Of a stretch of DNA of 64,000 bases, positions 42,591 to 64,000 are shown piece after piece (the first letter of the stretch is position 1; each line of letters starts with the position of its first letter). Location of the stretch: NCBI GenBank assembly GCA_905221615.1, contig CAJNDT010000942.1, positions 47,280 through 111,279 of the forward strand, written 5' to 3'. This DNA is from Symbiodinium sp. CCMP2592 (Eukaryota > Sar > Dinophyceae > Suessiales > Symbiodiniaceae). The position numbers were made by a program, and so were the translations under genes. Under the pieces are notes generated by a model that saw only the letters and a list, made by a program, of their open reading frames with translations, was not told where the DNA came from and did not search any database.

Positions 42591-42593
<3 letters not shown>

Positions 42594-42860
42594 ATCCCTG
42601 TTCCGAAGGGTCGATTGTGTGTCATGCAGGGGGTGCAAGAAGCATTCTGGAGTCTTGCACCAATGAAGACGCTCCAGTTTGCTTGTGATATCACGGGAAG
42701 ACGTTCCTGTGACGTACCTGCATAACGGCCGCCCGAAATACCCCAAAGATGCCGTTGTTTCACAGTTGGCCAAAATGACAAGATCGAGTAACTTCAAGCA
42801 GCTGACTCTTCTGACTTTGAGAGTGTGATTCGAGACCTGCGACACGATGTGTCAAGTGTG
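42591..42860 (+). repeat. Terminal direct repeat 1 (270 bp)
   Basis: Begins TCCATCCCTGTTCCGAAGGG after about 29 bases of TG microsatellite and ends GTCAAGTGTG. It differs from repeats 2 and 3 at a handful of bases, for example GCCAAAATGAC here against GCCGAAATGAC. Confidence 0.85.
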
Positions 42861-43163
42861 CTTCACAACGGCATTCCCTATGGGCGCCGTGTCTCCCAGA
42901 GGTAGCTCTGGCGTTGACTTTCCCGATTGACTGTATAAGCATTGGATGACTTTCCCTGATTCTATATCCATGCTTGCAAGCTGACTTTCTCAATGAGTCT
43001 TCACCGAATGCTTCTACCGAAACCTGAATGCTGACTTTCTCATTGACTGTCTATGATCAAGTCGACTTTCCCGAATCTGACTTTTTCGCTGACTTGTCGC
43101 AGGTCTTTGGCTACAAACCGAGTTTCTGAGCTGTACTTCTGAGTAGTTGCTGATCAGTTTGCC
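42861..43163 (+). promoter_or_regulatory. Leader with repeated TGACTTTC motifs, copy 1
   Basis: About eight (T)GACTTTC(C/T) motifs separated by 10-35 bases precede the first ORF. A TTGTCGCAGG acceptor-like site lies at about 43097-43106. Likely promoter or 5' UTR; function not shown. Confidence 0.45.
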
Positions 43164-44861
43164 ATGGATTCTTCAGGAAAGAGACGCAGTACCCGCACAT
43201 CAACCCCTCCCCCTCCTCCCCCACCTCCTCCTCCCCCTCCATCCTCCCCCTTCCCCCATCTCCCTGTGCCTCCCCCTCCCACTTCCACCCCTGCCCCCGC
43301 CCGTGGTACCACAGCGAAGTGGATTCCACCCCCCCCTCCCCTTCCCCCTCCCGCCTTCCCCCCGCCACCCCCCACTCTTGCAGTCTGCCCAGCGCCTGCC
43401 TCATCTTCTTCTTTGCCGGTCCCTTCTGCATCCGATGTTGGAGCGAGAGCTACAGATGTAACTCCTACTGTGATTGCTGCTCGTCCTGTAAATGATCGGC
43501 AGATTATGCAGCAAGAGGTTCCCCCCGCAATCACTCTTCATGCAGACGGCACAGGTTTCCGGTTGTCGTTTCGTTCGGTGGCTGATTTCGCTGAATACTC
43601 AGCGATTATGGCAGCAAACTTGACACATGTCCGAGGCCACAGAGATGTGTATGCTGGCCTCAACAATTTGCTTGACATTCAGCAGTCTGTTGTTTCTCAA
43701 CGGAATCAGTCAGCAGCATCTGTTCAGAGCCAACAGTCAGCCATCACGTATCAAACGGATGATTCAGACCAGCCAACAAAGCGACTTCGGCAAGTCCCTG
43801 GAAGTGAAGTTTCTCTTGTTGCAGATCCTAACAGCATTCGACTTCGTGCAATTTGTGATCAGATTCCTGGTACTCATGCAGATCGCGTAGGGTGGCAGCT
43901 CAGTGCGGACCAGACTTACGTCTTTCGAGTTAGACCTTTGCAAGACTCGTATGAGCATTTTGAGAATCGATCTCTTCTCAAAGGGCATGTGGAAGTTGAG
44001 TGGGAGCAAGATTCAAACTTCTTCGTGATTCCTGAACTTCGTGGGTTGGAAGTACGAGATGAAGAAGCGAAGCTGATACGCGTGTATTCATCTAGCTTCA
44101 ATTGGGTCGCATTATACCCCATGTTTACTGCTCTACGTCACTTGATCAGTTCCAGCCCTGGCCGTATGAAATCGGCATGTGAGATTTCGTCAAAGATACC
44201 GGCCAATCTTGAGTTGCAGGTTCCCAGCTCTCTGATGCAAAGCACGGCGGACTATCTGATCAGCCTGTTAGGTCTTCCTCCCCACGCTGTCAATTCGACA
44301 GCATTGAAGTATGTCTCTCAGGCAATTGCAGCAGCTGACCAAGCCGCAAACATTCATTCTGTGGAGCTTCGTTCTTTGTCGAGTTCGTGCAAGTGCTTGA
44401 GCATCCACTTCACCCACTTTGAGAGGACCATGATCAGGTCGCATGCTTCTGCAGCAGGGATTCGTCGTTCTCCTGTTGCACACAACACAACAGTGGCAGC
44501 GGCTGCATCAATCCTTCTTGAGGGAGCGATCCGACCTTCTTGGTGGGATGCTAGTGACAGCAAGTGGTCCCCACCAATTTCCTTCTATGCTAGGGCTCAC
44601 ACTTCAGATGCAGAACAAGCACAAGAGGCAGCGGCCAAGTACGGTGGCATTCTGAGTGAGCGTCCGGTGTGCATTTTCGGACATGCGTTTAATCGTCAAG
44701 GATCCCTCACACCTCCCCATTCAAGAATCCCCATGGGAGGGGTCGAAGGTGACCATTCTTGCAGCTACATTCGTGATGTTGCCCGTGCCAAAGATGGCAG
44801 ATGGGTCTTTCGCTCGTCATGTTTCATCCCGGAAGCGCTTCTTGTTTTTTGGAGGGTCTGA
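43164..44861 (+). CDS. ORF1, 565-aa Pro-rich protein with ART-like C-terminal segment, copy 1
   Basis: ATG 43164. Residues 1-90 are basic then almost pure proline runs (Pro-rich tracts split by SSPFPHLPV), suggesting SH3/profilin-type contacts or disorder. The centre (about 120-370) looks globular and unrecognised. From about 440, HNTTVAAAASILLEGAIRPS, FYARAHT and a Gly-Gly region with RWVFRSSCF resemble the H-x-T...G-x-I-R-P...FYARA core found in ADP-ribosyltransferase / RNA 2'-phosphotransferase-like dinoflagellate proteins (recalled; weak). Copy 2 differs at two residues (H to R near 376; R to A near 447). First gene of the unit, so probably the most abundant product. Structural or RNP role possible. 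Confidence 0.6.
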   Translation: MDSSGKRRSTRTSTPPPPPPPPPPPPSSPFPHLPVPPPPTSTPAPARGTTAKWIPPPPPLPPPAFPPPPPTLAVCPAPASSSSLPVPSASDVGARATDVTPTVIAARPVNDRQIMQQEVPPAITLHADGTGFRLSFRSVADFAEYSAIMAANLTHVRGHRDVYAGLNNLLDIQQSVVSQRNQSAASVQSQQSAITYQTDDSDQPTKRLRQVPGSEVSLVADPNSIRLRAICDQIPGTHADRVGWQLSADQTYVFRVRPLQDSYEHFENRSLLKGHVEVEWEQDSNFFVIPELRGLEVRDEEAKLIRVYSSSFNWVALYPMFTALRHLISSSPGRMKSACEISSKIPANLELQVPSSLMQSTADYLISLLGLPPHAVNSTALKYVSQAIAAADQAANIHSVELRSLSSSCKCLSIHFTHFERTMIRSHASAAGIRRSPVAHNTTVAAAASILLEGAIRPSWWDASDSKWSPPISFYARAHTSDAEQAQEAAAKYGGILSERPVCIFGHAFNRQGSLTPPHSRIPMGGVEGDHSCSYIRDVARAKDGRWVFRSSCFIPEALLVFWRV

Positions 44862-44914
44862 GTGCAACATGCTGCTTTGACCGGCCACGTCTTCAAGTTT
44901 CTTCCGTTGTCACC

Positions 44915-45023
44915 TGCAAGGGACGTGCAAGTGTACTGCAAGTGAGAAGAGCAAGTGACGTGCAAGGGATGTGCAAGAGTTTATGCATGGGACGTGCAAG
45001 TGACGTGCAAGGGATGTGCAAGA
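44915..45023 (+). promoter_or_regulatory. TGCAAG spacer array 1, copy 1
   Basis: Repeats of GACGTGCAAGTGACGTGCAA and GGGATGTGCAAGAG. It is followed by TTTCTTCATGAGCCGTCTTG and AGTTGCAG at about 45045-45052, identical to the sequence after array 4, then ATG 45116. An acceptor-like AG before the ATG fits cis- or trans-splicing of a polycistron. Confidence 0.6.
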
Positions 45024-45115
45024 GTTTCTTCATGAGCCGTCTTGAGTTGCAGCTTTTTGATCAGAAGTGTCGTTAGTGATTCCGCGCATCCAGATTTGTT
45101 GATAGATCTGAAACC

Positions 45116-46282
45116 ATGGCATGGAACGGGCAGTGGGACAACAGCACAGGGTACGGGAGGTCCCAGCAATCGTGGGGTCAGCACCGCTATCAGCCGTATA
45201 ACTCGGGAAGTTGGAATGATCCCAACCTCTCCAAGTCTGCACCTGCTAGTCAGCCACCTCCACTACCTCCGCCTCCTCTTTCTTCGGCACCTTCATCTTC
45301 GCCGTCTACTCCCATGCCATGTCATCAAGGTCCTGGTCCTGTTCCTGCACTACCGAATGGATGGGCGTTAGATCGGGATCATTATGATTCAACGGTGCTT
45401 CATGGGTTGTCCTTTCGTAAGTCCATCGAAGCCACCCCGTGGTCGCGGAAGAAAGGGATCGCAGGAAAAGACCCACTCAGCATTCCTGTTCAGGAATTCC
45501 TGTTTCATGGAGTCTCAGATTGGCGTCTTCGAGCATTGAGTCATGGCAAGTTTTTCAGTGTTGTGCCAGTTGCTACGGTTGCCGAAGCAGTGTTCATGTC
45601 GCAAGTGACGAAGAACCTTCGAGATCGCAAAGTTGACATCGATGCAGTTGCTACGCATCTCTTTCAGGCCGCTAATCCATCTACAATCATTCCCAACAAG
45701 AACACGGATTGTGCAGCTCTGTTTCAGCCGATGGTTGACAAGATCGTTCAGCTCATGTTTGACAACATGCCGGTGTCTGCAGGCGTCGATCAATCTCAGA
45801 AGTTTCTTCAAGTTACGGAAGAGCTCAATCGCCGCCGCGAACAGTTACAAGCCGCAGGACTTCCCGTTACCCCCACGAAACCCGCTTTGCAAACACAGCT
45901 CCCGGTTGCCTCGCAATCTAGTGCTCCGTGTCCACAATCCGTGACACCACCGCAGACTTGGGAGAGTGACCTCAAGCGTAAGATCGACAGTGTTCCTGCA
46001 GAAGCCCTGAATGATCACAAAGCCCGACTAAAGGGATCAGGAGAGGGGGACGTCGACAAGTGGATCCAGAGCTTCAAACGACCCCTAGGAAAGCGCTTTG
46101 TCGATTTTCAAGAACACATTGTGTCTGTCTCCAAGCTTGTGCAGATCAACTACGGAGGCAAGGAGAAAGCAAAACTGCAAGAACTTGCAGTAAAATTCGG
46201 GATCTCGGCGACTTTTGCATCTAGGATGGGTATCAAGAGTCTCTCTACGTGCATTGCAGCAGCAGCCTTTCAGGTTGTCTGA
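45116..46282 (+). CDS. ORF2, 388-aa protein, copy 1
   Basis: ATG 45116 (MAWNGQWDNS). The first 80 residues are Gly/Ser/Tyr/Gln rich and then Pro rich (PPLPPPPLSS). A central globular part (DPLSIPVQEFLFHGVSDWRL onward) has no recognised fold. The C-terminal third is Lys-rich helical and ends with a helix-turn-helix-like LQELAVKFGISATFASRMGI. No Cys-x2-Cys zinc knuckle is present. A Gag-like or nucleic-acid-associated protein is an inference only. The gap to the RT ORF is 84 bp with a TTACAG site and no TGCAAG array. Copy 2 differs at one residue (V to A near 345). Confidence 0.6.
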   Translation: MAWNGQWDNSTGYGRSQQSWGQHRYQPYNSGSWNDPNLSKSAPASQPPPLPPPPLSSAPSSSPSTPMPCHQGPGPVPALPNGWALDRDHYDSTVLHGLSFRKSIEATPWSRKKGIAGKDPLSIPVQEFLFHGVSDWRLRALSHGKFFSVVPVATVAEAVFMSQVTKNLRDRKVDIDAVATHLFQAANPSTIIPNKNTDCAALFQPMVDKIVQLMFDNMPVSAGVDQSQKFLQVTEELNRRREQLQAAGLPVTPTKPALQTQLPVASQSSAPCPQSVTPPQTWESDLKRKIDSVPAEALNDHKARLKGSGEGDVDKWIQSFKRPLGKRFVDFQEHIVSVSKLVQINYGGKEKAKLQELAVKFGISATFASRMGIKSLSTCIAAAAFQVV

Positions 46283-46366: not shown

Positions 46367-49024
46367 ATGTCGTTTGTGCTTCAGTTCATTCCGCATGTGG
46401 ACAAAGTGATGGCCATTTGGTTGCAAGGTTTTTGTCATCTGATTCTACTGTTCTATTACTCCAGGGGTACTTCGCCAGAACAACGGCTGCTTGAAAAATT
46501 GCGCAAAGCTGGAGTCACGCCGTCTGATTACACGTTCACACGGTTCCAGAGTCCTTGTGCAGTTTATTTGAAAGCCCCTGTGTCCTGGAGTACGCGTTCT
46601 TCGTTCAAGCAAAGAGACAGATGGATGTATGTTGGAAGTACTTCAATTACTATTTCCAAGCGTGAATTCAACCGGCAATCCAAACTCAAGCAAGTTCTCC
46701 GTGAGCAATATGTTCAAGTTGAACCAGCCATTCGTATTTGGGCTTCGCTGGGCAGGTATTTCGACTTTTCTACGCTTTGTCTGTCTGTTCATGATGACTA
46801 CAAACAAGCGTGGGTGCAAGAGCATGTTCTTATTGATCGATGGCAACCCAGATTGAATTCACCGTTCATTGACCGTTTCTTCATTAAGTCTGCATTGGGA
46901 TTCAAGAGACTCAGGCCACGTCCATCTCTCAAGAATGTTTCATTGTTTTCCAGACTTTGGGTCAAAGTTCGAAGACGTGCTGCTTCAACAAGTACTCCGA
47001 TTCGATGTTTGATGGATAAAAGCCAAGCGTGGTCGCTCTTGTACGATTTGGCATCGTTGACCTCGGCATCTTTCTCTGCTGCGAAAATTGTCAGATCTGC
47101 CAAAGTCTCGACGTTAGAGTTGTACGCGATGTTCCGCATGGCCAAGATCATGGAGCAGCCTTTCAGATCTAGAGTGGTACAGCTGCTCAAGTCTGCGCTC
47201 AAGTTTCGTAACTGCTCTGTACCCCGACATAACAAGTCAGTCACTCTACCATTTCTGTCTCACCCCACTTTTGCTGCCCATGTCTCCTCTTTTCTGTCTC
47301 ATACCATCCAGCAGTTCAAAGGCATTTGCATCCCGTTTCACCTCCCCTCTAAGACGCCGAGAGAGTCTGCTCCTCAATCGTTGGGCTCCATTCTTCACAA
47401 TCACTTTGAGTGGGAGAAGCAGCTTGCTGATACACCAGTTGATCACCTTCCATGCAGATGCCAACAATTTCAGCAGCAGCACCCCAATGTGGACTTGGTG
47501 GATGGACATGTGGCTACTGGACTTGAGACGTTGTCATTTCGCCAACCTGTTCTTAGAGAACTTGCTCAGGCCAATTCTAAATCCCTTATCTTCCCATCGA
47601 AAGCCAAGTACATCAAGGAGGCGACCTCTTCGTACAAGAGTTGGTGCAAGACGCATTTTATTCCCTTGCATACTCTTTCCATGTGGTTGCAGTTCATTCA
47701 TTCTGAGTGGCAGCTTCACCTTCGCCATATGTGCTCATGCCCGAAATTCCAGGAGTGTCATGCGTTGCAGCTCAAAGACATCGTGTGTACAGATTGGGTA
47801 ATTCACCTTGCTGATCACGAATCCACTCATCTCATGGTTTTTTGCCCCAGATTCTATTTCCAATCCTGCCATCGAGTATGGTCAGATGTCAAGGTGTTCA
47901 GCCCTATGCCCATGTCTGTTGCGTCAGCGAAGCTTTTTCTTTGTGCGCACGTCCCGTCACCACTGGTTCGCAAGTACCCTTGGGGATTCAAGTTGGATGC
48001 CAATCTGCCTGTGGGACAGATTTTTCTCAAACGCAAAAAGGCCTTCAAATCAGGACGAACCATCATCAGCTACAAGAACACAGCCTTGGGCCCTATTCTT
48101 AGGGCAGCGGCGATTTGCATTGACCAAATGGTCAACACAGTATGGCCTGGTTCTTTGTCACGCAGTGTTCCACAGATTTGGCATCACATTCACCAGGTGT
48201 TCAGACAGTGTCCGTTGGAAGTTGAACTTGAACTGCTCAATGACGATCTGGTCGGGTTCTTTAATTCCGTGCCACAAAGCCGTATCCTGGAAGCAGTGGA
48301 GATGTTGGTTCGCATGTTCACAGCAAGGCACCCTGATGTCAAATTGTCAGTGTGCATCAACGAGAAGAGCAAACACTTTCGTTCAATTCATGGGAGGATT
48401 TCTAATATTCGTCGACACTTCGATTGGAAGACCATCGATCCATTCGACTTGGTTACCATTGTTCGTCTCAGCTTCGAATGTGGCTTGTTTGTGGCGTTGA
48501 ATCGAGTATGGAAGCAAGTTGATGGTACGTCCATAGGTAACCAAATCAGCCCTGTCCTCTCTTCCCTTCCAGTGGTGATGACTGAGCTTGGTTGGGCAGC
48601 AATGTTCCCGCAGATCTCGAGCTTCCCTTCTACGTTCCTTGCAAGATACGTGGACAATCGTTTGGTGATTGCACCCACCGAGGTGCACAAAACAGTGCCT
48701 TTTCAAGTCTTCAGCCAAGAAACTTTTTATGGCTCTCCGATTGTTCTTGAAGCTGTCGGTGATGGTCACTTTTTGGGACTTGATATTGATGTCCGAAACC
48801 GAACTATTTATTATATCCAGCCCAAGTTCCTTTGGCAAGTTCGACATCCCATGAGTGCAGGCAGCGAACGATTGCTGGTGTCAGGTGCGAAGTCGAGAAT
48901 CTCTCTTATCCGTAAGTACACTTGGCCAACGTGCCAAGCAGAAGTCGCCGTTCATACCTTTGTACGGTGGTTGGCGAACCTCGGATACCCATTTCGCCTG
49001 TGTGAAGCTTTGATGAAACGATAA
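46367..49024 (+). CDS. ORF3, GIY-YIG endonuclease / reverse transcriptase (885 aa), copy 1
   Basis: ATG 46367. N-terminal GIY-YIG-type nuclease: AVY (65-67), MYVG (87-90), basic R99/R103, EHVLIDRWQPRLN with Glu152 and Asn164. A metal-site-like LPCRC...VDGHVATG occurs at 362-384. RT domain: GRTIISYK (563-570), motif A NDDLVGFF (625-632), motif B GTSIGNQISP (720-729), motif C RYVDN (760-764) and HFLGLDIDV (801-809). The usual Y-x-D-D is Y-V-D-N, so the second Asp is replaced. N-terminal placement of GIY-YIG is known from a subset of Penelope-like elements. The nuclease would nick the target to prime reverse transcription of the element RNA. No RNase H. Copy 2 carries an 8-codon deletion and G724D. 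Confidence 0.8.
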   Translation: MSFVLQFIPHVDKVMAIWLQGFCHLILLFYYSRGTSPEQRLLEKLRKAGVTPSDYTFTRFQSPCAVYLKAPVSWSTRSSFKQRDRWMYVGSTSITISKREFNRQSKLKQVLREQYVQVEPAIRIWASLGRYFDFSTLCLSVHDDYKQAWVQEHVLIDRWQPRLNSPFIDRFFIKSALGFKRLRPRPSLKNVSLFSRLWVKVRRRAASTSTPIRCLMDKSQAWSLLYDLASLTSASFSAAKIVRSAKVSTLELYAMFRMAKIMEQPFRSRVVQLLKSALKFRNCSVPRHNKSVTLPFLSHPTFAAHVSSFLSHTIQQFKGICIPFHLPSKTPRESAPQSLGSILHNHFEWEKQLADTPVDHLPCRCQQFQQQHPNVDLVDGHVATGLETLSFRQPVLRELAQANSKSLIFPSKAKYIKEATSSYKSWCKTHFIPLHTLSMWLQFIHSEWQLHLRHMCSCPKFQECHALQLKDIVCTDWVIHLADHESTHLMVFCPRFYFQSCHRVWSDVKVFSPMPMSVASAKLFLCAHVPSPLVRKYPWGFKLDANLPVGQIFLKRKKAFKSGRTIISYKNTALGPILRAAAICIDQMVNTVWPGSLSRSVPQIWHHIHQVFRQCPLEVELELLNDDLVGFFNSVPQSRILEAVEMLVRMFTARHPDVKLSVCINEKSKHFRSIHGRISNIRRHFDWKTIDPFDLVTIVRLSFECGLFVALNRVWKQVDGTSIGNQISPVLSSLPVVMTELGWAAMFPQISSFPSTFLARYVDNRLVIAPTEVHKTVPFQVFSQETFYGSPIVLEAVGDGHFLGLDIDVRNRTIYYIQPKFLWQVRHPMSAGSERLLVSGAKSRISLIRKYTWPTCQAEVAVHTFVRWLANLGYPFRLCEALMKR

Positions 49025-49140
49025 AAGCGGTTTGCAATCAGTTGACAGTCGACAGCAGACCTGCAAATGTTAGCGAAGCTGATATGTGTGTACTCACCTA
49101 GATTCAATTGGGTCAACCGAAAACGACAGATCACAGTGAT

Positions 49141-49260
49141 GAGCAAGGAATATGCAAGCGGATTGCAAGGGATGTGCAAGCGGATTGCAAGTGACGTGCA
49201 AGTGGACAGCAAGTGATATGCAAGGGTATGCGAGGTTTGTGCAAGTGCAGTGCAAGTGAT
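49141..49260 (+). promoter_or_regulatory. TGCAAG spacer array 2, copy 1
   Basis: Units such as GGATGTGCAAGCGGATTGCAA and GTGACGTGCAAGTG. The second half closely matches array 5 (CAAGTGATATGCAAGGGT(A/G)TGCGAGGT). Confidence 0.6.
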
Positions 49261-49350
49261 TCGTGGCAGTGTCTTGCATGCAATGTGCCTGCTTAAGATC
49301 TTTTAATTGCCTCGTTCAGTTCCAGCATTCGGCTTTCAGCGGTACACGCC

Positions 49351-49608
49351 ATGTCGGATCGATCCCGATCGCGTTCTCCGACTGTTTCGTGGCGATTTTA
49401 TTGGGTGAAAAATCAAGGACCCAATGGCAATGAAACGTGGTGGAAATCTTGGTTTCCCGCCACCTCTCGCTGGATTTCGGATCGACTGGCTGCTGACAAT
49501 CAGTGGCACCGAACTTCTCAGACGACCTCTTCGGTGGACTTGAACCTCCCTACTGAGAGCGCTAATTCTTTGTCACCCCGAAAACGCAAGCGAGATGCAT
49601 CACCGTAA
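49351..49608 (+). CDS. ORF4, 85-aa protein, copy 1
   Basis: ATG 49351 (MSDRSRSRSPTVSW). The N-terminus is a short Arg-Ser stretch, the middle has WYWVKN-like aromatic residues and W-x-R spacing, and the end is basic (SPRKRKRDASP), a likely nuclear localisation signal. Identical in both copies. Small RNA-binding or splicing-factor-like protein by composition; no family. Confidence 0.55.
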   Translation: MSDRSRSRSPTVSWRFYWVKNQGPNGNETWWKSWFPATSRWISDRLAADNQWHRTSQTTSSVDLNLPTESANSLSPRKRKRDASP

Positions 49609-49856
49609 GAGCATTTATCATGTTGGAACAGCGGACGACTTGTCTGCTTAATTCGTTTTCCCAATTGACATTTTTGGGACAATCATCATTCCTGGATTAG
49701 AGCGCCTGCACCGCTGAAGTGGAACCGTCTTTGCGCATTGAAAAACAGCGCGTAGGAGCATTACGCTCGGTTGTTTGCCTTTTTCGTTATTCCTCTCTCC
49801 CCTCTCTCTCTCTGTCTCTCGGGAAGCCGAAGGAGTCTTTCTTGTTTACTCATGTG

Positions 49857-50231
49857 ATGCCGCCAGCCGTTTCCGTCTTGTTTTCTCGGCACACCGATAT
49901 GGCTTCTCGTCAAGACAATGGGGTACCATATGACGATCTCCCTGATGATGCCAGTTCCTGGTCTTCGGCTTTCGATCCTCCCAAAGACTCGGCACCCACA
50001 GAGGTGGCGTCTTGGGTTAAGAAGTCCTCCAACAAGTGCAAGAAGACCAAGAAGTCCAAGAAATCAAAGAGGGTGAAAAAGGACCGGTTACCAAACAAGT
50101 CTCCGAAGTCCATGAAGTCTAAGAAGGACAAACGTGAGCGTTCACCTGTTCCTTCTGAAGCAAGTGATATTACGCTTGGGGATCCGATGCAGATCCTGCA
50201 GCACGGTCGAAAGCTTGTGCAAAAATGCTGA
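49857..50231 (+). CDS. ORF5, Lys-rich protein, copy 1
   Basis: The frame is open from 49719, but I start at the ATG at 49857 or 49899 (MASRQDNGVPYDDL) because 49790-49830 is a CT-rich tract typical of an acceptor region. The core is KKCKKTKKSKKSKRVKKD, then KSPKSMKSKKDKRERS, a highly basic tail-like region with SP sites, followed by a short acidic end. Identical in copy 2. A chromatin- or RNA-compacting role is inferred. Confidence 0.55.
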   Translation: MPPAVSVLFSRHTDMASRQDNGVPYDDLPDDASSWSSAFDPPKDSAPTEVASWVKKSSNKCKKTKKSKKSKRVKKDRLPNKSPKSMKSKKDKRERSPVPSEASDITLGDPMQILQHGRKLVQKC

Positions 50232-50450
50232 TTAGAGCTAACCTCCGCTGTGCATGCCATTTTTGGTATGTTGCACAGTGTCCCAACCGAAACGTTTGAT
50301 TCTTTTTTGATTTGGTCACCGGGAGTGTACAGGATTACATGTCACTTGCTGAAAAACTACCAGAGCAAGAGTTGTGCCCCGTGTCCTGGAGTACGAGTTC
50401 TTCGTCCAAGCAGAGTGAAACGTCAGCAGTTGCGTCCGTGTGCCAGTGTC

Positions 50451-50551
50451 ACTGCAAGGGTGTTGCAAGGGATGTGCAAGGGACGTGCGAGTGATGTGCG
50501 AGGGACGTGCAAGGGATGTGCAAGTGACGTGCAAGTGACGTGCAAGCAAGT
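50451..50551 (+). promoter_or_regulatory. TGCAAG spacer array 3, copy 1
   Basis: The array follows AGAGTGAAACGTCAGCAGTTGC. Units AAGGGATGTGCAAGGGACGTG; ends GTGCAAGCAAGTGTT before ATG 50612. The opening resembles that of array 4. Confidence 0.6.
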
Positions 50552-50611: not shown

Positions 50612-51247
50612 ATGCCGACGGTGCCACCTTCGGATCCCAACATTGATGAGTTCCTGAGAGCGCTCACCCATTCAGCGCGTGTGAGATTGCTCAACTTTGT
50701 ATCACGACCACAACTTCGTCAAGCTCTCGTACTTCAGTTGACAGCTTTTGTGCGTGACGGGACAGAAAGAATGCTGCAGCAAGAGTTGCGTCGCTTGGAT
50801 GAGAGGGATAGAGCAAACCTGCGTGAAGAACGCCCTAGCAGTAGCGGAGCTTCAGGATCACGTTCGTCCAGATCCCACCCCTATGCACCTCCATCCTCTC
50901 TGCCATTATCGAGGAGTACACCGAGTGCAGGCAGCGACAACCCTTCGTCCAGTTCTGCACCTCCTTCTGGCCCTCCCCCTGTTCCCCCTCCTCCCCTCCC
51001 TCCCCCTCTTCCCCCTCCCTTCTTCCCCCCGCCCAGTGCCAGTGCTCCTGTCTTTCCACCCCCAGTGCCACTTGCAAGCTTGGCGCATCGTGTGTCTGAA
51101 TCTTCTTTGGTGTCCAATGCTGCTTCGTCGTCGGCCGCACCTACATCTTCAGCCGCGTCAGGTACTCCGATTAGATCCAAACCTATGCCTACCAGAAGAC
51201 GTGTTTCACGCCGACGGCGACGCAGTCAGTCTTCTGATCTTAGCTGA
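50612..51247 (+). CDS. ORF6, 211-aa Pro/Ser/Arg-rich protein, copy 1
   Basis: ATG 50612 (MPTVPPSDPNIDEF). Residues 1-70 are helical with RLLNFVSRPQLRQALVLQL and LQQELRRLDERDRANL. The middle is Ser then Pro rich (PPPPLPPPLPPPFFPPP), and the end is Arg rich (TRRRVSRRRRRSQSS). The pattern of helical dimer, disordered linker and basic tail is that of nucleocapsid-like or mRNP proteins; this is inference. Copy 2 has four extra residues in the Pro region (215 aa) and S to P near 180. Confidence 0.6.
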   Translation: MPTVPPSDPNIDEFLRALTHSARVRLLNFVSRPQLRQALVLQLTAFVRDGTERMLQQELRRLDERDRANLREERPSSSGASGSRSSRSHPYAPPSSLPLSRSTPSAGSDNPSSSSAPPSGPPPVPPPPLPPPLPPPFFPPPSASAPVFPPPVPLASLAHRVSESSLVSNAASSSAAPTSSAASGTPIRSKPMPTRRRVSRRRRRSQSSDLS

Positions 51248-51415: not shown

Positions 51416-51805
51416 ATGTCGAGCAACTCAGCGTGCGATCCGTTGGCACCTCTACAACGCTGGATTTCCTACACACAACAGGAGCTGATCACAATCAGAG
51501 GTGAATTCCGTCATTTTCGTGAAGAAGCATTGTCCGTCCAGAAGATCCAACAAGCTCAACTCGACGTGCTCACCACACAAATCAGGGACACTGAGGCTCA
51601 GGTGGCGGAAGTTATGTCCGCCACCACAGAACTGTTTCAGAAACTTCAGAAGACCAACGAAGTGGTGGGGAACTTGCTGACAGATTTGAATTCTCTTCAA
51701 TCTGTGACTACTCATTGCGTTAATTCTCTTCAACATCAAGAAACAACAGAGTTGCCCCCAACACTTCCAGCAGAAGAAGTTGACGAAATTGAAGTCTCAG
51801 AGTGA
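51416..51805 (+). CDS. ORF7, coiled-coil protein (about 129 aa), copy 1
   Basis: The frame extends to 51356, but ATG 51416 (MSSNSACDPLAPLQRW) is the first. The segment ISYTQQELITIRGEFRHFRE through LLTDLNSLQSV is a continuous heptad-like coiled coil, and the end is acidic (EEVDEIEVSE). Identical in copy 2. An oligomerisation partner for ORF2 or ORF6 is conceivable. Confidence 0.55.
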   Translation: MSSNSACDPLAPLQRWISYTQQELITIRGEFRHFREEALSVQKIQQAQLDVLTTQIRDTEAQVAEVMSATTELFQKLQKTNEVVGNLLTDLNSLQSVTTHCVNSLQHQETTELPPTLPAEEVDEIEVSE

Positions 51806-51845
51806 AACGAGAGCAGTTGCAAACAAGCGTTTGTGTGCCAGTGTC

Positions 51846-55958: not shown

Positions 55959-57125
55959 ATGGCATGGAACGGGCAGTGGGACAACAGCACAGGGTACGGG
56001 AGGTCCCAGCAATCGTGGGGTCAGCACCGCTATCAGCCGTATAACTCGGGAAGTTGGAATGATCCCAACCTCTCCAAGTCTGCACCTGCTAGTCAGCCAC
56101 CTCCACTACCTCCGCCTCCTCTTTCTTCGGCACCTTCATCTTCGCCGTCTACTCCCATGCCATGTCATCAAGGTCCTGGTCCTGTTCCTGCACTACCGAA
56201 TGGATGGGCGTTAGATCGGGATCATTATGATTCAACGGTGCTTCATGGGTTGTCCTTTCGTAAGTCCATCGAAGCCACCCCGTGGTCGCGGAAGAAAGGG
56301 ATCGCAGGAAAAGACCCACTCAGCATTCCTGTTCAGGAATTCCTGTTTCATGGAGTCTCAGATTGGCGTCTTCGAGCATTGAGTCATGGCAAGTTTTTCA
56401 GTGTTGTGCCAGTTGCTACGGTTGCCGAAGCAGTGTTCATGTCGCAAGTGACGAAGAACCTTCGAGATCGCAAAGTTGACATCGATGCAGTTGCTACGCA
56501 TCTCTTTCAGGCCGCTAATCCATCTACAATCATTCCCAACAAGAACACGGATTGTGCAGCTCTGTTTCAGCCGATGGTTGACAAGATCGTTCAGCTCATG
56601 TTTGACAACATGCCGGTGTCTGCAGGCGTCGATCAATCTCAGAAGTTTCTTCAAGTTACGGAAGAGCTCAATCGCCGCCGCGAACAGTTACAAGCCGCAG
56701 GACTTCCCGTTACCCCCACGAAACCCGCTTTGCAAACACAGCTCCCGGTTGCCTCGCAATCTAGTGCTCCGTGTCCACAATCCGTGACACCACCGCAGAC
56801 TTGGGAGAGTGACCTCAAGCGTAAGATCGACAGTGTTCCTGCAGAAGCCCTGAATGATCACAAAGCCCGACTAAAGGGATCAGGAGAGGGGGACGTCGAC
56901 AAGTGGATCCAGAGCTTCAAACGACCCCTAGGAAAGCGCTTTGTCGATTTTCAAGAACACATTGCGTCTGTCTCCAAGCTTGTGCAGATCAACTACGGAG
57001 GCAAGGAGAAAGCAAAACTGCAAGAACTTGCAGTAAAATTCGGGATCTCGGCGACTTTTGCATCTAGGATGGGTATCAAGAGTCTCTCTACGTGCATCGC
57101 AGCAGCAGCCTTTCAGGTTGTCTGA
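55959..57125 (+). CDS. ORF2, 388-aa protein, copy 2
   Basis: ATG 55959. Same length and composition as copy 1; the only residue change seen is EHIASVSK in place of EHIVSVSK. The Lys-rich C-terminal helix is intact. Unknown, possibly Gag-like. Confidence 0.6.
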   Translation: MAWNGQWDNSTGYGRSQQSWGQHRYQPYNSGSWNDPNLSKSAPASQPPPLPPPPLSSAPSSSPSTPMPCHQGPGPVPALPNGWALDRDHYDSTVLHGLSFRKSIEATPWSRKKGIAGKDPLSIPVQEFLFHGVSDWRLRALSHGKFFSVVPVATVAEAVFMSQVTKNLRDRKVDIDAVATHLFQAANPSTIIPNKNTDCAALFQPMVDKIVQLMFDNMPVSAGVDQSQKFLQVTEELNRRREQLQAAGLPVTPTKPALQTQLPVASQSSAPCPQSVTPPQTWESDLKRKIDSVPAEALNDHKARLKGSGEGDVDKWIQSFKRPLGKRFVDFQEHIASVSKLVQINYGGKEKAKLQELAVKFGISATFASRMGIKSLSTCIAAAAFQVV

Positions 57126-57209: not shown

Positions 57210-59843
57210 ATGTCGTTTGTGCTTCAGTTCATTCCGCATGTGGACAAAGTGATGGCCATTTGGTTGCAAGGTTTTTGTCATCTGATTCTACTGTTCTATT
57301 ACTCCAGGGGTACTTCGCCAGAACAACGGCTGCTTGAAAAATTGCGCAAAGCTGGAGTCACGCCGTCTGATTACACGTTCACACGGTTCCAGAGTCCTTG
57401 TGCAGTTTATTTGAAAGCCCCTGTGTCCTGGAGTACGCGTCCTTCGTTCAAGCAAAGAGACAGATGGATGTATGTTGGAAGTACTTCAATTACTATTTCC
57501 AAGCGTGAATTCAACCGGCAATCCAAACTCAAGCAAGTTCTCCGTGAGCAATATGTTCAAGTTGAACCAGCCATTCGTATTTGGGCTTCGCTGGGCAGGT
57601 ATTTCGACTTTTCTACGCTTTGTCTGTCTGTTCATGATGACTACAAACAAGCGTGGGTGCAAGAGCATGTTCTTATTGATCGATGGCAACCCAGATTGAA
57701 TTCACCGTTCATTGACCGTTTCTTCATTAAGTCTGCATTGGGATTCAAGAGACTCAGGCCACGTCCATCTCTCAAGAATGTTTCATTGTTTTCCAGACTT
57801 TGGGTCAAAGTTCGAAGACGTGCTGCTTCAACAAGTACTCCGATTCGATGCTTGATGGACAAAAGCCAAGCGTGGTCGCTCTTGTATGATTTGGCATCGT
57901 TGACCTCGGCATCTTTCTCTGCTGCGAAAATTGTCAGATCTGCCAAAGTCTCGACGTTAGAGTTGTACGCGATGTTACGCATGGCCAAGATCATGGAGCA
58001 GCCTTTCAGATCTAGAGTGGTACAGCTGCTCAAGTCTGCGCTCAAGTTTCGTAACTGCTCTGTACCCCGACATAACAAGTCAGTCACTCTACCATTTCTG
58101 TCTCACCCCACTTTTGCTGCCCATGTCTCTTCTTTTCTGTCTCATACCATCCAGCAGTTCAAAGGCATTTGCATCCCGTTTCACCTCCCCTCTAAGACGC
58201 CGAGAGAGTCTGCTCCTCAATCGTTGGGCTCCATTCTTCACAATCATTTTGAGTGGGAGAAGCAGCTTGCTGATACACCAGTTGATCACCTTCCATGCAG
58301 ATGCCAACAATTTCAGCAGCAGCACCCCAATGTGGACTTGGTGGATGGACATGTGGCTACTGGACTTGAGACGTTGTCATTTCGCCAACCTGTTCTTAGA
58401 GAACTTGCTCAGGCCAATTCTAAATCCCTTATCTTCCCATCAAAAGCCAAGTACATCAAGGAGGCGACCTTTTCGTACAAGAGTTGGTGCAAGACGCATT
58501 TTATTCCCTTGCATACTCTTTCCATGTGGTTGCAGTTCATTCATTCTGAGTGGCAGCTTCACCTTCGCCATATGTGCTCATGCCCGAAATTCCAGGAGTG
58601 TCATGCGTTGCAGCTCAAAGACATCGTGTGTACAGATTGGGTGATTCACCTTGCTGATCACGAATCCACTCATCTCATGGTTTTTTGCCCCAGATTCTAT
58701 TTCCAATCCTGCCATCGAGTATGGTCAGATGTCAAGGTGTTCAGCCCGAAGCTTTTTCTTTGTGCGCACGTCCCGTCACCACTGGTTCGCAAGTACCCTT
58801 GGGGATTCAAGTTGGATGCCAATCTGCCTGTCGGACAGATTTTTCTCAAACGCAAAAAGGCCTTCAAATCAGGACGAACCATCATCAGCTACAAGAACAC
58901 AGCCTTGGGCCCTATTCTTAGGGCAGCGGCGATTTGCATTGACCAAATGGTCAACACAGTATGGCCTGGTTCTTTGTCACGCAGTGTTCCACAGATTTGG
59001 CATCACATTCACCAGGTGTTCAGACAGTGTCCGTTGGAAGTTGAACTTGAACTGCTCAATGACGATCTGGTCGGGTTCTTTAATTCCGTGCCACAAAGCC
59101 GTATCCTGGAAGCAGTGGAGATGCTGGTTCGCATGTTCACAGCAAGGCACCCTGATGTCAAATTGTCAGTGTGCATCAACGAGAAGAGCAAGCACTTTCG
59201 TTCAATTCATGGAAGGATTTCTAATATTCGTCGACACTTCGATTGGAAGACCATCGATCCATTCGACTTGGTTACCATTGTTCGTCTCAGCTTCGAATGT
59301 GGCTTGTTTGTGGCGTTGAATCGAGTATGGAAGCAAGTTGATGGTACGTCCATAGATAACCAAATCAGCCCTGTCCTCTCTTCCCTTCCAGTGGTGATGA
59401 CTGAGCTTGGTTGGGCAGCAATGTTTCCGCAGATCTCGAGCTTCCCTTCTACGTTCCTTGCAAGATACGTGGACAATCGTTTGGTGATTGCACCCACCGA
59501 GGTGCATAAAACAGTACCTTTTCAAGTCTTCAGCCAAGAAACCTTTTATGGCTCTCCGATTGTTCTTGAAGCTGTCGGTGATGGTCACTTTTTGGGATTT
59601 GATATTGATGTCCGAAACCGAACCATTTACTATCTCCAGCCCAAGTTCCTTTGGCAAGTTCGACATCCCATGAGTGCAGGCAGCGAACGATTGCTGGTGT
59701 CAGGTGCGAAGTCGAGAATCTCTCTTATCCGTAAGTACACTTGGCCAACGTGCCAAGCAGAAGTCGCCGTTCATACCTTTGTACGGTGGTTGGCGAACCT
59801 CGGATACCCATTTCGCCTGTGTGAAGCTTTGATGAAACGATAA
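57210..59843 (+). CDS. ORF3, GIY-YIG / reverse transcriptase, copy 2 (877 aa, altered motif B)
   Basis: ATG 57210. Domain order as in copy 1, but a 24-bp in-frame deletion removes eight residues (MPMSVASA) between FSP and KLFL, upstream of the RT core. Other changes: S74P, F256L, S421F, L805F and I817L in copy-1 numbering, and G724D, which turns GTSIGNQISP into GTSIDNQISP inside RT motif B. A charged residue at that loop position is unusual and may impair dNTP/template placement. RYVDN is kept. The copy may be catalytically weak and depend on copy 1. Confidence 0.75.
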   Translation: MSFVLQFIPHVDKVMAIWLQGFCHLILLFYYSRGTSPEQRLLEKLRKAGVTPSDYTFTRFQSPCAVYLKAPVSWSTRPSFKQRDRWMYVGSTSITISKREFNRQSKLKQVLREQYVQVEPAIRIWASLGRYFDFSTLCLSVHDDYKQAWVQEHVLIDRWQPRLNSPFIDRFFIKSALGFKRLRPRPSLKNVSLFSRLWVKVRRRAASTSTPIRCLMDKSQAWSLLYDLASLTSASFSAAKIVRSAKVSTLELYAMLRMAKIMEQPFRSRVVQLLKSALKFRNCSVPRHNKSVTLPFLSHPTFAAHVSSFLSHTIQQFKGICIPFHLPSKTPRESAPQSLGSILHNHFEWEKQLADTPVDHLPCRCQQFQQQHPNVDLVDGHVATGLETLSFRQPVLRELAQANSKSLIFPSKAKYIKEATFSYKSWCKTHFIPLHTLSMWLQFIHSEWQLHLRHMCSCPKFQECHALQLKDIVCTDWVIHLADHESTHLMVFCPRFYFQSCHRVWSDVKVFSPKLFLCAHVPSPLVRKYPWGFKLDANLPVGQIFLKRKKAFKSGRTIISYKNTALGPILRAAAICIDQMVNTVWPGSLSRSVPQIWHHIHQVFRQCPLEVELELLNDDLVGFFNSVPQSRILEAVEMLVRMFTARHPDVKLSVCINEKSKHFRSIHGRISNIRRHFDWKTIDPFDLVTIVRLSFECGLFVALNRVWKQVDGTSIDNQISPVLSSLPVVMTELGWAAMFPQISSFPSTFLARYVDNRLVIAPTEVHKTVPFQVFSQETFYGSPIVLEAVGDGHFLGFDIDVRNRTIYYLQPKFLWQVRHPMSAGSERLLVSGAKSRISLIRKYTWPTCQAEVAVHTFVRWLANLGYPFRLCEALMKR

Positions 59844-60169: not shown

Positions 60170-60427
60170 ATGTCGGATCGATCCCGATCGCGTTCTCCGA
60201 CTGTTTCGTGGCGATTTTATTGGGTGAAAAATCAAGGACCCAATGGCAATGAAACGTGGTGGAAATCTTGGTTTCCCGCCACCTCTCGCTGGATTTCGGA
60301 TCGACTGGCTGCTGACAATCAGTGGCACCGAACTTCTCAGACGACCTCTTCGGTGGACTTGAACCTCCCTACTGAGAGCGCTAATTCTTTGTCACCCCGA
60401 AAACGCAAGCGAGATGCATCACCGTAA
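60170..60427 (+). CDS. ORF4, 85-aa protein, copy 2
   Basis: ATG 60170. Translation identical to copy 1, including the RS-type start and the KRKRD basic end. Confidence 0.55.
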   Translation: MSDRSRSRSPTVSWRFYWVKNQGPNGNETWWKSWFPATSRWISDRLAADNQWHRTSQTTSSVDLNLPTESANSLSPRKRKRDASP

Positions 60428-60675: not shown

Positions 60676-61050
60676 ATGCCGCCAGCCGTTTCCGTCTTGT
60701 TTTCTCGGCACACCGATATGGCTTCTCGTCAAGACAATGGGGTACCATATGACGATCTCCCTGATGATGCCAGTTCCTGGTCTTCGGCTTTCGATCCTCC
60801 CAAAGACTCGGCACCCACAGAGGTGGCGTCTTGGGTTAAGAAGTCCTCCAACAAGTGCAAGAAGACCAAGAAGTCCAAGAAATCAAAGAGGGTGAAAAAG
60901 GACCGGTTACCAAACAAGTCTCCGAAGTCCATGAAGTCTAAGAAGGACAAACGTGAGCGTTCACCTGTTCCTTCTGAAGCAAGTGATATTACGCTTGGGG
61001 ATCCGATGCAGATCCTGCAGCACGGTCGAAAGCTTGTGCAAAAATGCTGA
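60676..61050 (+). CDS. ORF5, Lys-rich protein, copy 2
   Basis: Start at ATG 60676 or 60718 (MASRQDN). Identical to copy 1 including the Lys-rich core. Confidence 0.55.
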   Translation: MPPAVSVLFSRHTDMASRQDNGVPYDDLPDDASSWSSAFDPPKDSAPTEVASWVKKSSNKCKKTKKSKKSKRVKKDRLPNKSPKSMKSKKDKRERSPVPSEASDITLGDPMQILQHGRKLVQKC

Positions 61051-61430: not shown

Positions 61431-62078
61431 ATGCCGACGGTGCCACCTTCGGATCCCAACATTGATGAGTTCCTGAGAGCGCTCACCCATTCAGCGCGTG
61501 TGAGATTGCTCAACTTTGTATCACGACCACAACTTCGTCAAGCTCTCGTACTTCAGTTGACAGCTTTTGTGCGTGACGGGACAGAAAGAATGCTGCAGCA
61601 AGAGTTGCGTCGCTTGGATGAGAGGGATAGAGCAAACCTGCGTGAAGAACGCCCTAGCAGTAGCGGAGCTTCAGGATCACGGTCGTCCAGATCCCACCCC
61701 TATGCACCTCCATCCTCTCTGCCAATATCGAGGAGTACACCGAGTGCAGGCAGTGACAACCCTTCGTCCAGTTCTGCACCTCCCTCCTTCCCTCCCCCTG
61801 GCCCTCCCCCTCTTCCCCCTCCTCCCCTCCCTCCCCCTCTTCCCCCTCCCTTCTTCCCCCCGCCCAGTGCCAGTGCTCCTGTCTTTCCACCCCCAGTGCC
61901 ACTTGCAAGCTTGGCGCATCGTGTGTCTGAATCTCCTTTGGTGTCCAATGCTGCTTCGTCGTCGGCCGCACCTACATCTTCAGCCGCGTCAGGTACTCCG
62001 ATTAGATCCAAACCTATGCCTACCAGAAGACGTGTTTCACGCCGACGGCGACGCAGTCAGTCTTCTGATCTTAGCTGA
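61431..62078 (+). CDS. ORF6, 215-aa Pro/Ser/Arg-rich protein, copy 2
   Basis: ATG 61431. The proline tract is enlarged by four residues relative to copy 1 (extra FPPPGP-type segment), an expected slippage change; L to I near position 98 and S to P near 170. Helical start and Arg-rich end unchanged. Confidence 0.6.
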   Translation: MPTVPPSDPNIDEFLRALTHSARVRLLNFVSRPQLRQALVLQLTAFVRDGTERMLQQELRRLDERDRANLREERPSSSGASGSRSSRSHPYAPPSSLPISRSTPSAGSDNPSSSSAPPSFPPPGPPPLPPPPLPPPLPPPFFPPPSASAPVFPPPVPLASLAHRVSESPLVSNAASSSAAPTSSAASGTPIRSKPMPTRRRVSRRRRRSQSSDLS

Positions 62079-62246: not shown

Positions 62247-62636
62247 ATGTCGAGCAACTCAGCGTGCGATCCGTTGGCACCTCTACAACGCTGGATTTCC
62301 TACACACAACAGGAGCTGATCACAATCAGAGGTGAATTCCGTCATTTTCGTGAAGAAGCATTGTCCGTCCAGAAGATCCAACAAGCTCAACTCGACGTGC
62401 TCACCACACAAATCAGGGACACTGAGGCTCAGGTGGCGGAAGTTATGTCCGCCACCACAGAACTGTTTCAGAAACTTCAGAAGACCAACGAAGTGGTGGG
62501 GAACTTGCTGACAGATTTGAATTCTCTTCAATCTGTGACTACTCATTGCGTTAATTCTCTTCAACATCAAGAAACAACAGAGTTGCCCCCAACACTTCCA
62601 GCAGAAGAAGTTGACGAAATTGAAGTCTCAGAGTGA
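62247..62636 (+). CDS. ORF7, coiled-coil protein, copy 2
   Basis: ATG 62247 (MSSNSACDPL). Identical in translation to copy 1. Confidence 0.55.
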   Translation: MSSNSACDPLAPLQRWISYTQQELITIRGEFRHFREEALSVQKIQQAQLDVLTTQIRDTEAQVAEVMSATTELFQKLQKTNEVVGNLLTDLNSLQSVTTHCVNSLQHQETTELPPTLPAEEVDEIEVSE

Positions 62637-62832: not shown

Positions 62833-63141
62833 ATGAAGCGCAAGGCTAGCGAAGCCAATTTGCCTTGGAGTACCAGCCGCGACTACAATTTTCGGATGTG
62901 GGTTCGTGTATGCAGTCGGGCAACGGGACACGAGACTATTATCCTCCACATCCAGTTGTCAATCAACGATTCCATCAACGGTGCCAAATACCTTGTCGCG
63001 ATGCAGCTTTGGGAGAAGTTCGGCTGGTGGCCTAGGTTGCACACCTTCCAGCTTGTACAAAACTTTCGTCACCTTCGGTTTACAGAACCTGTTACGACTG
63101 CTCAAACCCTCGAACCAGTCGATTTCGTCGTTACGGTATAA
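62833..63141 (+). CDS. ORF8, 102-aa protein, copy 2
   Basis: ATG 62833. One residue differs from copy 1 (SINGAKY). Several silent changes occur around it, for example CACATCCAGTTGTC against CACATCCAGTTATC, consistent with purifying selection on the protein. Confidence 0.5.
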   Translation: MKRKASEANLPWSTSRDYNFRMWVRVCSRATGHETIILHIQLSINDSINGAKYLVAMQLWEKFGWWPRLHTFQLVQNFRHLRFTEPVTTAQTLEPVDFVVTV

Positions 63142-63171: not shown

Positions 63172-63277
63172 CAGTGACGTGCAAGGGATGTGCAATCGGA
63201 ATGCAAGTGATGCGCAAGTGAATTGCAAGTGATATGCAAGGGTGTGCGAGGTCTGTGCAAGTGCAACGCAAGGAGTG
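63172..63277 (+). promoter_or_regulatory. TGCAAG spacer array 5, copy 2
   Basis: Same as array 5 of copy 1. Confidence 0.6.
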
Positions 63278-63325
63278 TGCAGTTTTGCTTCAAGCACTTG
63301 GAAAATTGTGTAGACCCCGAACATC

Positions 63326-63802
63326 ATGGATTGGGCTGCTTCTGATGTGCTCGATAACGTCTTGATGTACGTGTTGCCGATCAGAACCAGAATCACATTC
63401 ATTACCCGCCTCGATCCAGATGATGACGTTGAAGAGGCACAACCCATCACTGACACCATGGTGGCGTACACGTTTCTGCGACGTGGGATGCAGGAGTTTC
63501 GGCTGTCCTCTTCGACTAAGTGGACCATGGGCTTTCAGTCTCTGCATACCACCATCCGTTTTGCACAAATCAATGTCGTGGCATGCACCATGTTGAGCAG
63601 CCCGTCAAAAAGGTGGATGAGAGCTGTCGTAGGTCAAGTACAGGAGCGTTTGCGAGTGAGTATCGTGTCACTGGCCAGCGTTGCGTACCAAACTGCAACT
63701 CAATGTTGCATGTACTTTGATGCCGATGCGGAAGAAGCAGAAGTTGAATTGCATTTAGTGCACAGACTGCGCTTCCTGAGGTTTCGTAGCCCGCTCTCCT
63801 AG
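63326..63802 (+). CDS. ORF9, 158-aa protein, copy 2
   Basis: ATG 63326. Identical to copy 1. Confidence 0.55.
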   Translation: MDWAASDVLDNVLMYVLPIRTRITFITRLDPDDDVEEAQPITDTMVAYTFLRRGMQEFRLSSSTKWTMGFQSLHTTIRFAQINVVACTMLSSPSKRWMRAVVGQVQERLRVSIVSLASVAYQTATQCCMYFDADAEEAEVELHLVHRLRFLRFRSPLS

Positions 63803-63847
63803 GTGTCTTGAGCATTAGACTCTTCCATGAATTTCAGTGAAAAAAGC

Positions 63848-63923
63848 AGCAAGGGATGTGCAAGGGACGTGCAAGTGACGTGCAAGGGACGTGCAAGGGA
63901 TGTGCAAGTGACGAGCAAGGGAT
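63848..63923 (+). promoter_or_regulatory. TGCAAG spacer array 6, copy 2
   Basis: Same as array 6 of copy 1. Confidence 0.55.
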
Positions 63924-63963
63924 CTGAAAGTTTCTACAACGAGCCCAGTTGGGCTTGTGTGTG

Positions 63964-64000
63964 TCCATCCCTGTTCCGAAGGGTCGATTGTGTGTCATGC
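63964..64000 (+). repeat. Terminal direct repeat 4, truncated
   Basis: First 37 bases of the terminal repeat (TCCATCCCTGTTCC...) after GTTGGGCTTGTGTGTG, cut by the window end. Confidence 0.8.

Follow-up and report, generated by a model that had tools for sequence, protein, structure and literature searches.

Penelope-like elements (PLEs) are described as compact retroelements of 4-6 kb with one or two open reading frames (ORFs). In the N-terminal endonuclease-positive (EN+) PLEs Naiad and Chlamys, which Craig et al. are said to have described in 2021, one main ORF reportedly carries an N-terminal GIY-YIG domain and a CxC linker regarded as a defining feature of the group, and microsatellites are reportedly the target. 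According to the available part of PMC12477816, Chlamys has also been recorded for the brown alga Ectocarpus. The canonical EN+ PLEs (Penelope/Poseidon) have pseudo-long terminal repeats (pLTRs) and form tandem, partial-tandem and 5'-truncated copies (accessible portions of PMC3846280 and PMC11167929); cargo can move between the pLTRs (PMC3846280, same portion), and a self-cleaving hammerhead lies at the pLTR-ORF region (PMC11167929, same portion). A multi-ORF exception among the PLEs, as far as the accessible text of PMC6431247 goes, is formed by the Terminons (Athena) of bdelloid rotifers, which are telomeric, reach 40 kb, carry hammerheads and encode an EN-deficient reverse transcriptase (RT) protein. 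SymbioLINE and SymbioDIRS, of the LINE and DIRS types and equipped with a DNA methyltransferase, are on record for Symbiodinium in the available part of PMC5890265, where the terms "Penelope" and "GIY-YIG" were not found. A multigene GIY-YIG PLE in dinoflagellates was likewise not found at the level of titles and abstract openings, with few subscription papers covered. Here we describe a multigene element, present as two adjacent units, in a stretch of 64,000 nucleotides from the dinoflagellate Symbiodinium sp. CCMP2592 (GenBank assembly GCA_905221615.1, contig CAJNDT010000942.1, hereafter C942; the whole stretch, C942:47280-111279, is called the window and its own numbering is used throughout). 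We consider it probable that the units represent a modular polycistronic multigene retroelement lineage, most likely placed within or sister to the N-terminal EN+ PLEs.

A sequence-only reading of the window had proposed two adjacent 10.8-kb copies with nine ORFs on the + strand in fixed order, and this layout proved to be real. Unit 1 occupies 42576-53416 and is followed at 53417 by unit 2, giving a start-to-start distance of 10,841 bp; the blastn alignment of the two has 10,627 columns and 4 gap openings, at 98.955% identity. In both, the ORFs encode, in the same order, 565, 388, 885 (877 in unit 2), 85, 124, 211 (215 in unit 2), 129, 102 and 158 amino acids (aa). In unit 1, ORF1 (43164..44861) has a Pro-rich N-terminus and a C-terminal domain discussed below, ORF2 (45116..46282) a low-complexity N-terminus followed by a conserved domain, and ORF3 (46367..49024) an N-terminal GIY-YIG-like domain, a CxC linker and an RT with YVDN. 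ORF4 (49351..49608) begins with a Ser-Arg-rich stretch, ORF5 (49857..50231) is a small Lys-rich protein, ORF6 (50612..51247) is Pro-rich with an Arg-rich tail, and ORF7 (51416..51805) is probably a coiled coil (17 Pfam matches, all under cut-off, best E 0.0016); ORF8 (52021..52329) and ORF9 (52514..52990) complete the set. Their counterparts in unit 2, also on the + strand, lie at 54007..55704, 55959..57125, 57210..59843, 60170..60427, 60676..61050, 61431..62078, 62247..62636, 62833..63141 and 63326..63802. The proteins of ORF4, 5, 7 and 9 are completely identical between the units, while those of ORF1, 2, 6 and 8 differ in a few residues and the RT of unit 2 is shorter by 8 aa; the proposal that most small ORFs are identical is corrected accordingly. 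The direct terminal repeats of that reading are present too, at about 280 bp and not 270 bp: pLTR-like repeats in the + orientation lie on either side of unit 1 (42576..42855 and 53137..53416) and at the start of unit 2 (53417..53696), two of them touching at 53416/53417. Of unit 2's right repeat, C942 (111,279 bp) contains just the initial 45 bp (63956..64000) before it ends.

Searching the genome (1.098 Gb, 5,383 contigs) with the RT protein yielded at least 51 scored copies out of 1,222 candidates, all 51 with full query coverage and 96-100% identity; 48 of them are free of stops. Codon-level constraint was assessed from the proportions of nonsynonymous and synonymous differences (pN/pS) in 22 sequences, namely both window units and the 20 copies scoring best after them, a sample biased to similar and intact copies. 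After rows matching less than 60% of the ORF length had been dropped (n = 20, 22, 22, 22, 21, 19, 18, 18 and 18 for ORF1-9), the mean pairwise pN/pS, calculated over statistically non-independent pairs, was 0.26, 0.16, 0.09, 0.18, 0.28, 0.19, 0.18, 0.08 and 0.23, respectively. For all nine ORFs the annotated frame gave the lowest value of the six, the other two + frames ranging from 0.83 to 3.08; one minus frame was also low in each ORF (0.12-0.44), probably owing to the common wobble position. Intact frames were found in 11, 19, 20, 22, 21, 15, 18, 17 and 17 of the 22 copies for ORF1-9. ORF7-9 seemed to be missing in L015, L019 and L023, and a true loss was rejected since runs of N start at those places; in L028 the similarity to the unit stops within ORF5. 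Nineteen of the 20 fetched copies have an ORF5 frame that stays open for 150 aa, compared with 124 aa in both window units; the match begins 1-2 bases within the first codon of the window ORF in 8 of the 20, and therefore the true start probably lies further in. All nine ORFs are genes under codon-level constraint. Loss, frame breakage or lack of constraint of the small ORFs in other genomic copies had been named beforehand as the sign of spacer artefacts; what the copies displayed was a pN/pS of 0.08-0.28 in nine ORFs out of nine, and the comparison did not refute the proposal.

The GIY-YIG-like pattern AVY...Y(V/I)GST...R...E...N occurs in ORF3, in its relatives P0001 (75% identity over 54%) and P0002 (37%), and in the RT protein of a related family, B; a further family, C, has (T)VY...YVGST, Pfam matches being absent, and P0003 (37%) lacks the YIG part. 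Between this domain and the RT, the two cysteines of CxC (C363, C365) are invariant in 6 of 6 sequences, and YVDNR is present in all five proteins that cover the region of RT motif C, including those of divergent families. RVT_1 matched P0003 with E 0.0022, and the group II RT model TIGR04416 matched P0003 (1.5e-7), the family B RT (3.7e-4) and the family C RT (0.11), all below the curated cut-offs. A scan of IMG/VR with the ORF3 alignment A1 gave no match, and PDB sequence searches with A1-A5, ORF8 and ORF9 returned nothing or matches at chance level. ORF2 has five relatives and ORF1 nine; for both the ORF2-like P0007 and the ORF1-like P0010 the longest contig measures 29,218 bp, which suggests, though it does not prove, that they are physically linked. 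Motif impressions of an ADP-ribosyltransferase-like C-terminal domain in ORF1 and of a ubiquitin-like ORF8 found no support in Pfam or the PDB and were discarded.

The same genome harbours related families, which were read fully for gene content in the case of B and C, as in that of the window's own family A, and partly for a fourth, D. A genome search with P0002 gave at least 53 matches (50 of 1,232 candidates scored), every one outside family A; those of family B are mostly at 55-62% identity to P0002 and include 17 stop-free frames of 919 aa, the others being at 43-44%. The flanking repeats of family B (L041/L042) are 318 bp long and 100% identical, those of family C (L043/L044) about 400 bp and 98.3% identical, and the respective RTs share 36-37% and 34% identity with ORF3. 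All three fully read families have ORF2 ahead of the RT. In family B the order is ORF2, RT, a protein X, ORF5, a 201-aa ORF and ORF4; in family C it is ORF2, RT, X, ORF4, ORF5 and a 129-aa ORF. Family D (C115) has an RT 44% identical to P0002 followed by a 615-aa X, and over the 3.8 kb read beyond the RT neither ORF4/5 nor a second repeat motif was seen. The earlier idea of an enlarged GIY-YIG-like and RT lineage with a fixed set of extra genes is supported; in the related families the gene order differs. From family to family the X proteins have 32% identity. ORF1 is related, in its C-terminal part, to the post-RT X of family B (score reached by 0 of 500 shuffles); compared directly with the family C X the similarity is not significant (120 of 500), the connection to that protein running by way of family B. 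ORF4 has homologues in family B (53%) and family C (95%), and the 102-aa ORF8 has a relative in the 129-aa ORF found in family C (0 of 500 shuffles). A homology of ORF9 with the 201-aa ORF of family B was rejected (16 of 500). The small ORFs of families B and C show a pN/pS of 0.11-0.30, from one two-copy comparison each, with the exception of B ORF5 (0.52), for which the start was probably assumed too far upstream.

Nucleotide similarity between families A and C is confined to one module, ORF4 plus ORF5, at 49268..50363 on the + strand (89.8% over 1,111 bp, blastn, E 1e-6), which contrasts with the 34% identity of the RTs. The module sits between two arrays of an 11-bp unit, at 49135..49262 (spacer 3-4, its left edge) and 50411..50546 (spacer 5-6, its right edge). 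In addition, the longer repeat variant of family A has 148 bp in common with the family B repeat at 91.9%. We read the module and the repeat core as the probable outcome of exchange between families. Further + strand arrays of unit 1 are located in spacer 1-2 (44915..45057), spacer 7-8 (51834..51988), spacer 8-9 (52355..52460) and 3' of ORF9 (53037..53126); the arrays thus follow ORFs 1, 3, 5, 7, 8 and 9, and none lies between 2-3, 4-5 or 6-7. They comprise 4-13 units by a loose count, and all six were found in every copy with a fully aligned spacer (n = 16, 21, 21, 10, 18 and 3).

The ends were read in six copies besides those of the window. The element begins after (TG)n and its 3' end, ...TCAAGTGTG, runs into a TG stretch; a (TG)n tract is present at the left junction in 6 of the 7 readable copies of families A, B and C (W1, C890, C2, C5033, C612 and C1902), target-site duplications being indistinguishable inside such a tract. 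Left junctions could not be counted for C287 (N), C2201 (without a 5' end), W2 and C979b (both adjoining another unit) and C115 (repeat start unplaced). Within C890, C2 and C5033 the left and right repeats are of the same type, and the C979 copy has one repeat in common with its upstream neighbour. C2201 (L011) begins inside ORF1, consistent with 5' truncation. The copies lie inside their contigs, which measure up to 2.8 Mb. Pseudo-LTRs, tandem arrangements and a microsatellite insertion bias are all present. More same-strand copies lie 10.6 kb (L010/L025, C979), 21.1 kb (L015/L019, C4257) and 13.6 kb (L016/L028, C4926) apart, so tandem or near-tandem arrays recur in the genome. To the left of unit 1, window positions 42329-42420 hold a relic resembling another repeat variant, in which CATCAGATTTCG is complementary to CGAAATCTGATG in the manner of the loop pairing described below, and unit 1 seems to adjoin an older related insertion.

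The repeats encode a covarying hairpin and a loop pairing, that is, a predicted RNA structure of pseudoknot type that belongs to no Rfam family. Over the 17 repeat ends scanned the order is GCAGG, a hairpin, AA(C/T)GAA, a strand complementary to the hairpin loop, usually a second hairpin, and GTACCTGC. In the left repeat of unit 1 the motif (42626..42721) consists of a closing stem, an 8-bp hairpin, the linker AATGAAG, the loop-pairing strand and the second hairpin; in the right repeat (53187..53282) the stem is intact and the linker is AATGAAA, and the left repeat of unit 2 carries the motif at 53467..53562, all three on the + strand. Defined on families A, B and C, the motif was then also found upstream of the RT in a divergent B copy and in family D. 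The right repeat of C1902 and the relic at 42329-42420 were left out of the RNA counts. In six variants all 76 counted cells pair, two cells having been set aside, and 6 of the 8 hairpin pairs show double changes; the covariation score was reached by 0 of 500 shuffles and by no slid version, and the number of pairs with double changes by 3 of 500 shuffles. A perfect 8-bp stem is present in 11 of 12 distinct variants, the twelfth lacking one arm. For the loop-to-strand pairing, own partners summed over 11 variants, 5 of them newly taken from genome pattern matches, scored 103 against a maximum of 93 in 5,000 permutations; in 5 of the 11 (W1, C5033, CL, C2_33641 and C2_64341) the strand of another variant pairs over an equal or greater length. 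Taken singly, the loop pairing was reached by 127 (W1), 116 (C5033), 298 (CL) and 0 (C979L) of 5,000 shuffles.

Exact matches to the motif pattern number 1,737 in the genome, versus 0 for the reversed control; elsewhere, IMG/VR yielded 1 match and the GTDB species genomes (stated to hold 257 billion bases) yielded 3, the stems of all four being only 1-2 bp. In the first 100 places, taken contig by contig, 31 pairs of neighbours on one strand had motifs of the same length, and their spacings were as follows: 7 at 0.95-1.6 kb, 4 at 5-6 kb, 7 at 8.1-9.6 kb, 12 at 9.9-11.0 kb and 1 at 14.6 kb. These spacings are as expected for the terminal repeats of full elements together with shorter derivatives, and the pairs 0.95-1.6 kb apart are possibly short non-autonomous derivatives mobilised by the element. 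No Rfam 15 model matched the repeat RNA at the gathering threshold. At E<=5 only sub-threshold matches were obtained, to a ribosomal leader and to a lncRNA model in other parts of the unit and to miRNA and snoRNA models in the fetched loci; of the latter, mir-308 (E 1.3, minus strand) overlaps the motif in L031. Rfam hammerheads were found neither in window 42301-54100 (E<=5), nor in the whole window (gathering threshold), nor in 5 repeat-bearing loci (E<=5). The topologies of the Pistol and HDV ribozymes differ in stem order and were set aside.

Membership in the PLEs is likely on motifs and element architecture, not on phylogeny, and several observations weigh against the favoured reading. 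ORF3 itself matched no RT or GIY-YIG model of Pfam or NCBIfam, and profile searches of the PDB (A1, A5) returned no RT or nuclease; hence the RT and GIY-YIG-like assignments rest on motifs and relatives. Asn replaces the second Asp of motif C (YVDN versus YxDD), and the AlphaFold models of ORF3 (A1, pLDDT 40) and ORF1 (A3, pLDDT 31) were not used. In 8 of the 22 copies the ORF1 frame is disrupted near residues 96-110, and in 11 it is intact; the breaks may reflect decay, assembly errors in C runs or a different start. In family C, the X of C1902 is frame-broken, compared with a single 626-aa frame in C5060, and in C5060 the 129-aa ORF8-like gene is frame-broken. The 11-bp arrays are absent from families B and C, so they mark joints of family A and are not a general signal. 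The right repeat of C1902, one of the 17 ends, retains little of the hairpin's 5' arm; the seventh readable left junction, that of the divergent B copy C480, has only TGTGTGTG and no long tract; and no spliced-leader sequence was found within the window with up to 3 mismatches allowed.

The alternative that survives best, which we nevertheless regard as rather unlikely, is a new class of retroelement outside the PLEs, with group-II-like RT affinity, true LTRs and a virus-like gene set. It would account for the fact that the RT relatives were detected only by group II RT, RVT_1 and a phage RT family, all weakly, for the single copies flanked by two repeats of the same type, and for the unusual YVDN and module sharing. 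The N-terminal GIY-YIG-like domain, the CxC linker and the microsatellite target, however, agree with what is reportedly typical of the N-terminal EN+ PLEs. The pLTRs and tandems likewise agree with PLE structure as given in the accessible portions of PMC3846280 and PMC11167929.

The nine genes, the module sharing and the small basic proteins would also suit an integrated viral or retrovirus-like genome instead of a transposon; we judge this very unlikely. Capsid, packaging ATPase, protease and envelope proteins gave no match above chance (Pfam for all nine ORFs; PHROGs for ORF1, 2, 3, 8 and 9, with a chance-level tail-protein match of ORF8, E 0.28), although sequence searches can miss such families, and the high copy number, the tandems, the microsatellite target and the motif pairs at 1-1.6 kb fit a transposon. 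Slightly less credible still is an LTR retrotransposon of the Ty1, Ty3 or DIRS type that has captured a GIY-YIG domain: direct terminal repeats whose left and right variants match within one copy speak for it, yet no integrase, protease, RNase H or tyrosine recombinase was matched by Pfam in any of the nine ORFs at E<=1, the insertions lie at (TG)n, one copy is consistent with 5' truncation, and the last residue of RT motif B is E, which departs from the LTR pattern. Finally, one could suppose an RT element of the ordinary one-gene kind, in which the small ORFs are spurious and merely reflect G+C-rich spacer DNA; this reading, for which one might invoke the lack of any Pfam match above the curated cut-off in the nine ORFs and the low-complexity or Pro-rich character of several, has next to no likelihood, being refuted by the codon-level test (0.08-0.28 in the own frame versus at least 0.83 in the other + frames) and by the recurrence of ORF2, ORF4, ORF5, ORF8 and ORF1 C-terminal homologues in families B or C.

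Under the favoured reading of a polycistronic, PLE-related retroelement lineage, a mechanism may be proposed. The repeat would drive a genome-length RNA, from which gene-sized mRNAs would arise, in a dinoflagellate most likely via spliced-leader trans-splicing. A nick made by the GIY-YIG-like domain in a (TG)n/(CA)n tract would expose the CA strand, to which the RNA could anneal through its UG-rich 3' end and so prime target-primed reverse transcription. The folded repeat RNA might cut tandem read-through RNA into units or, alternatively, serve as a handle by which the RT/EN protein chooses its own RNA. ORF2 would be a packager of RNA resembling Gag or ORF1p, ORF1 and ORFs 4-9 might form or tune the ribonucleoprotein, and the 11-bp arrays of family A could act as joints for module recombination; for ORF1, ORF2 and ORF4-9 these functions are guesses from composition and position. 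Going further, we put forward, tentatively and as something possible rather than probable, that a novel class is at hand: modular virus-like retroelements of about 8-11 kb with six to nine genes (in the three fully read families). Their YVDN-bearing GIY-YIG-like/RT protein, an ORF2 of Gag type and a changing complement of accessory genes would be exchanged as cassettes, and their new repeat RNA, with more than 1,700 motif matches in the genome, might be a ribozyme that cleaves itself or a pseudoknot for recognition by the RT and may also mark short non-autonomous derivatives.

Elsewhere in the window, an A+T-rich block at about 12500-24000 (26-37% GC versus roughly 50-58% around it) contains an rve integrase match just under the cut-off (16812-17708, minus strand, E 4.6e-7), a Pox_A32 packaging ATPase (20460-21266, + strand, E 7.4e-10) and helicase domains (13337-14611 and 12789-13340, both on the minus strand). 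We take the block for a Polinton- or virophage-like insertion; a 2025 paper (PMC12721341) deals with endogenized polinton-like viruses in Oxyrrhis. A direct repeat of 205 nt is found at 4083-4868 as two copies 581 bp apart and 96% identical, and the long open frame at 29114-31327, which contains a bacterial Ig-like (Big_5) domain (E 9.9e-9), is probably part of a host gene.

A multigene lineage that combines a GIY-YIG-like domain, constrained genes and a common cassette suggests that virus-like gene sets can evolve without LTR-type machinery, and the 1,737 pattern matches form a large natural set of one structured RNA open to self-cleavage or RT-binding assays. The closest resemblance is to the N-terminal EN+ PLEs, through the N-terminal domain that is GIY-YIG-like at motif level, the CxC linker, the C-terminal RT, the pseudo-LTRs, the tandems, the microsatellite target and the lack of a hammerhead in the regions scanned; in contrast to their reported single main ORF, the elements described here have nine constrained genes, modules shared from family to family, an uncatalogued repeat RNA and YVDN. 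With SymbioLINE and SymbioDIRS they share residence in a dinoflagellate genome and the possession of an extra gene (available part of PMC5890265). With the Terminons, as presented in the accessible text of PMC6431247, they have in common that they are large retroelements of PLE type with several ORFs, accessory and coiled-coil ones among them, and occur in head-to-tail arrays; they differ in having a GIY-YIG-like domain at the level of motifs, in occupying (TG)n sites within contigs and in the lack of a detected hammerhead. Finally, the pLTRs, the tandems and a copy consistent with 5' truncation recall Penelope/Poseidon as described in the accessible portions of the sources cited above; where those elements have a C-terminal EN, a single ORF and a hammerhead, the repeat described here carries an unrelated, covarying predicted structure of pseudoknot type.

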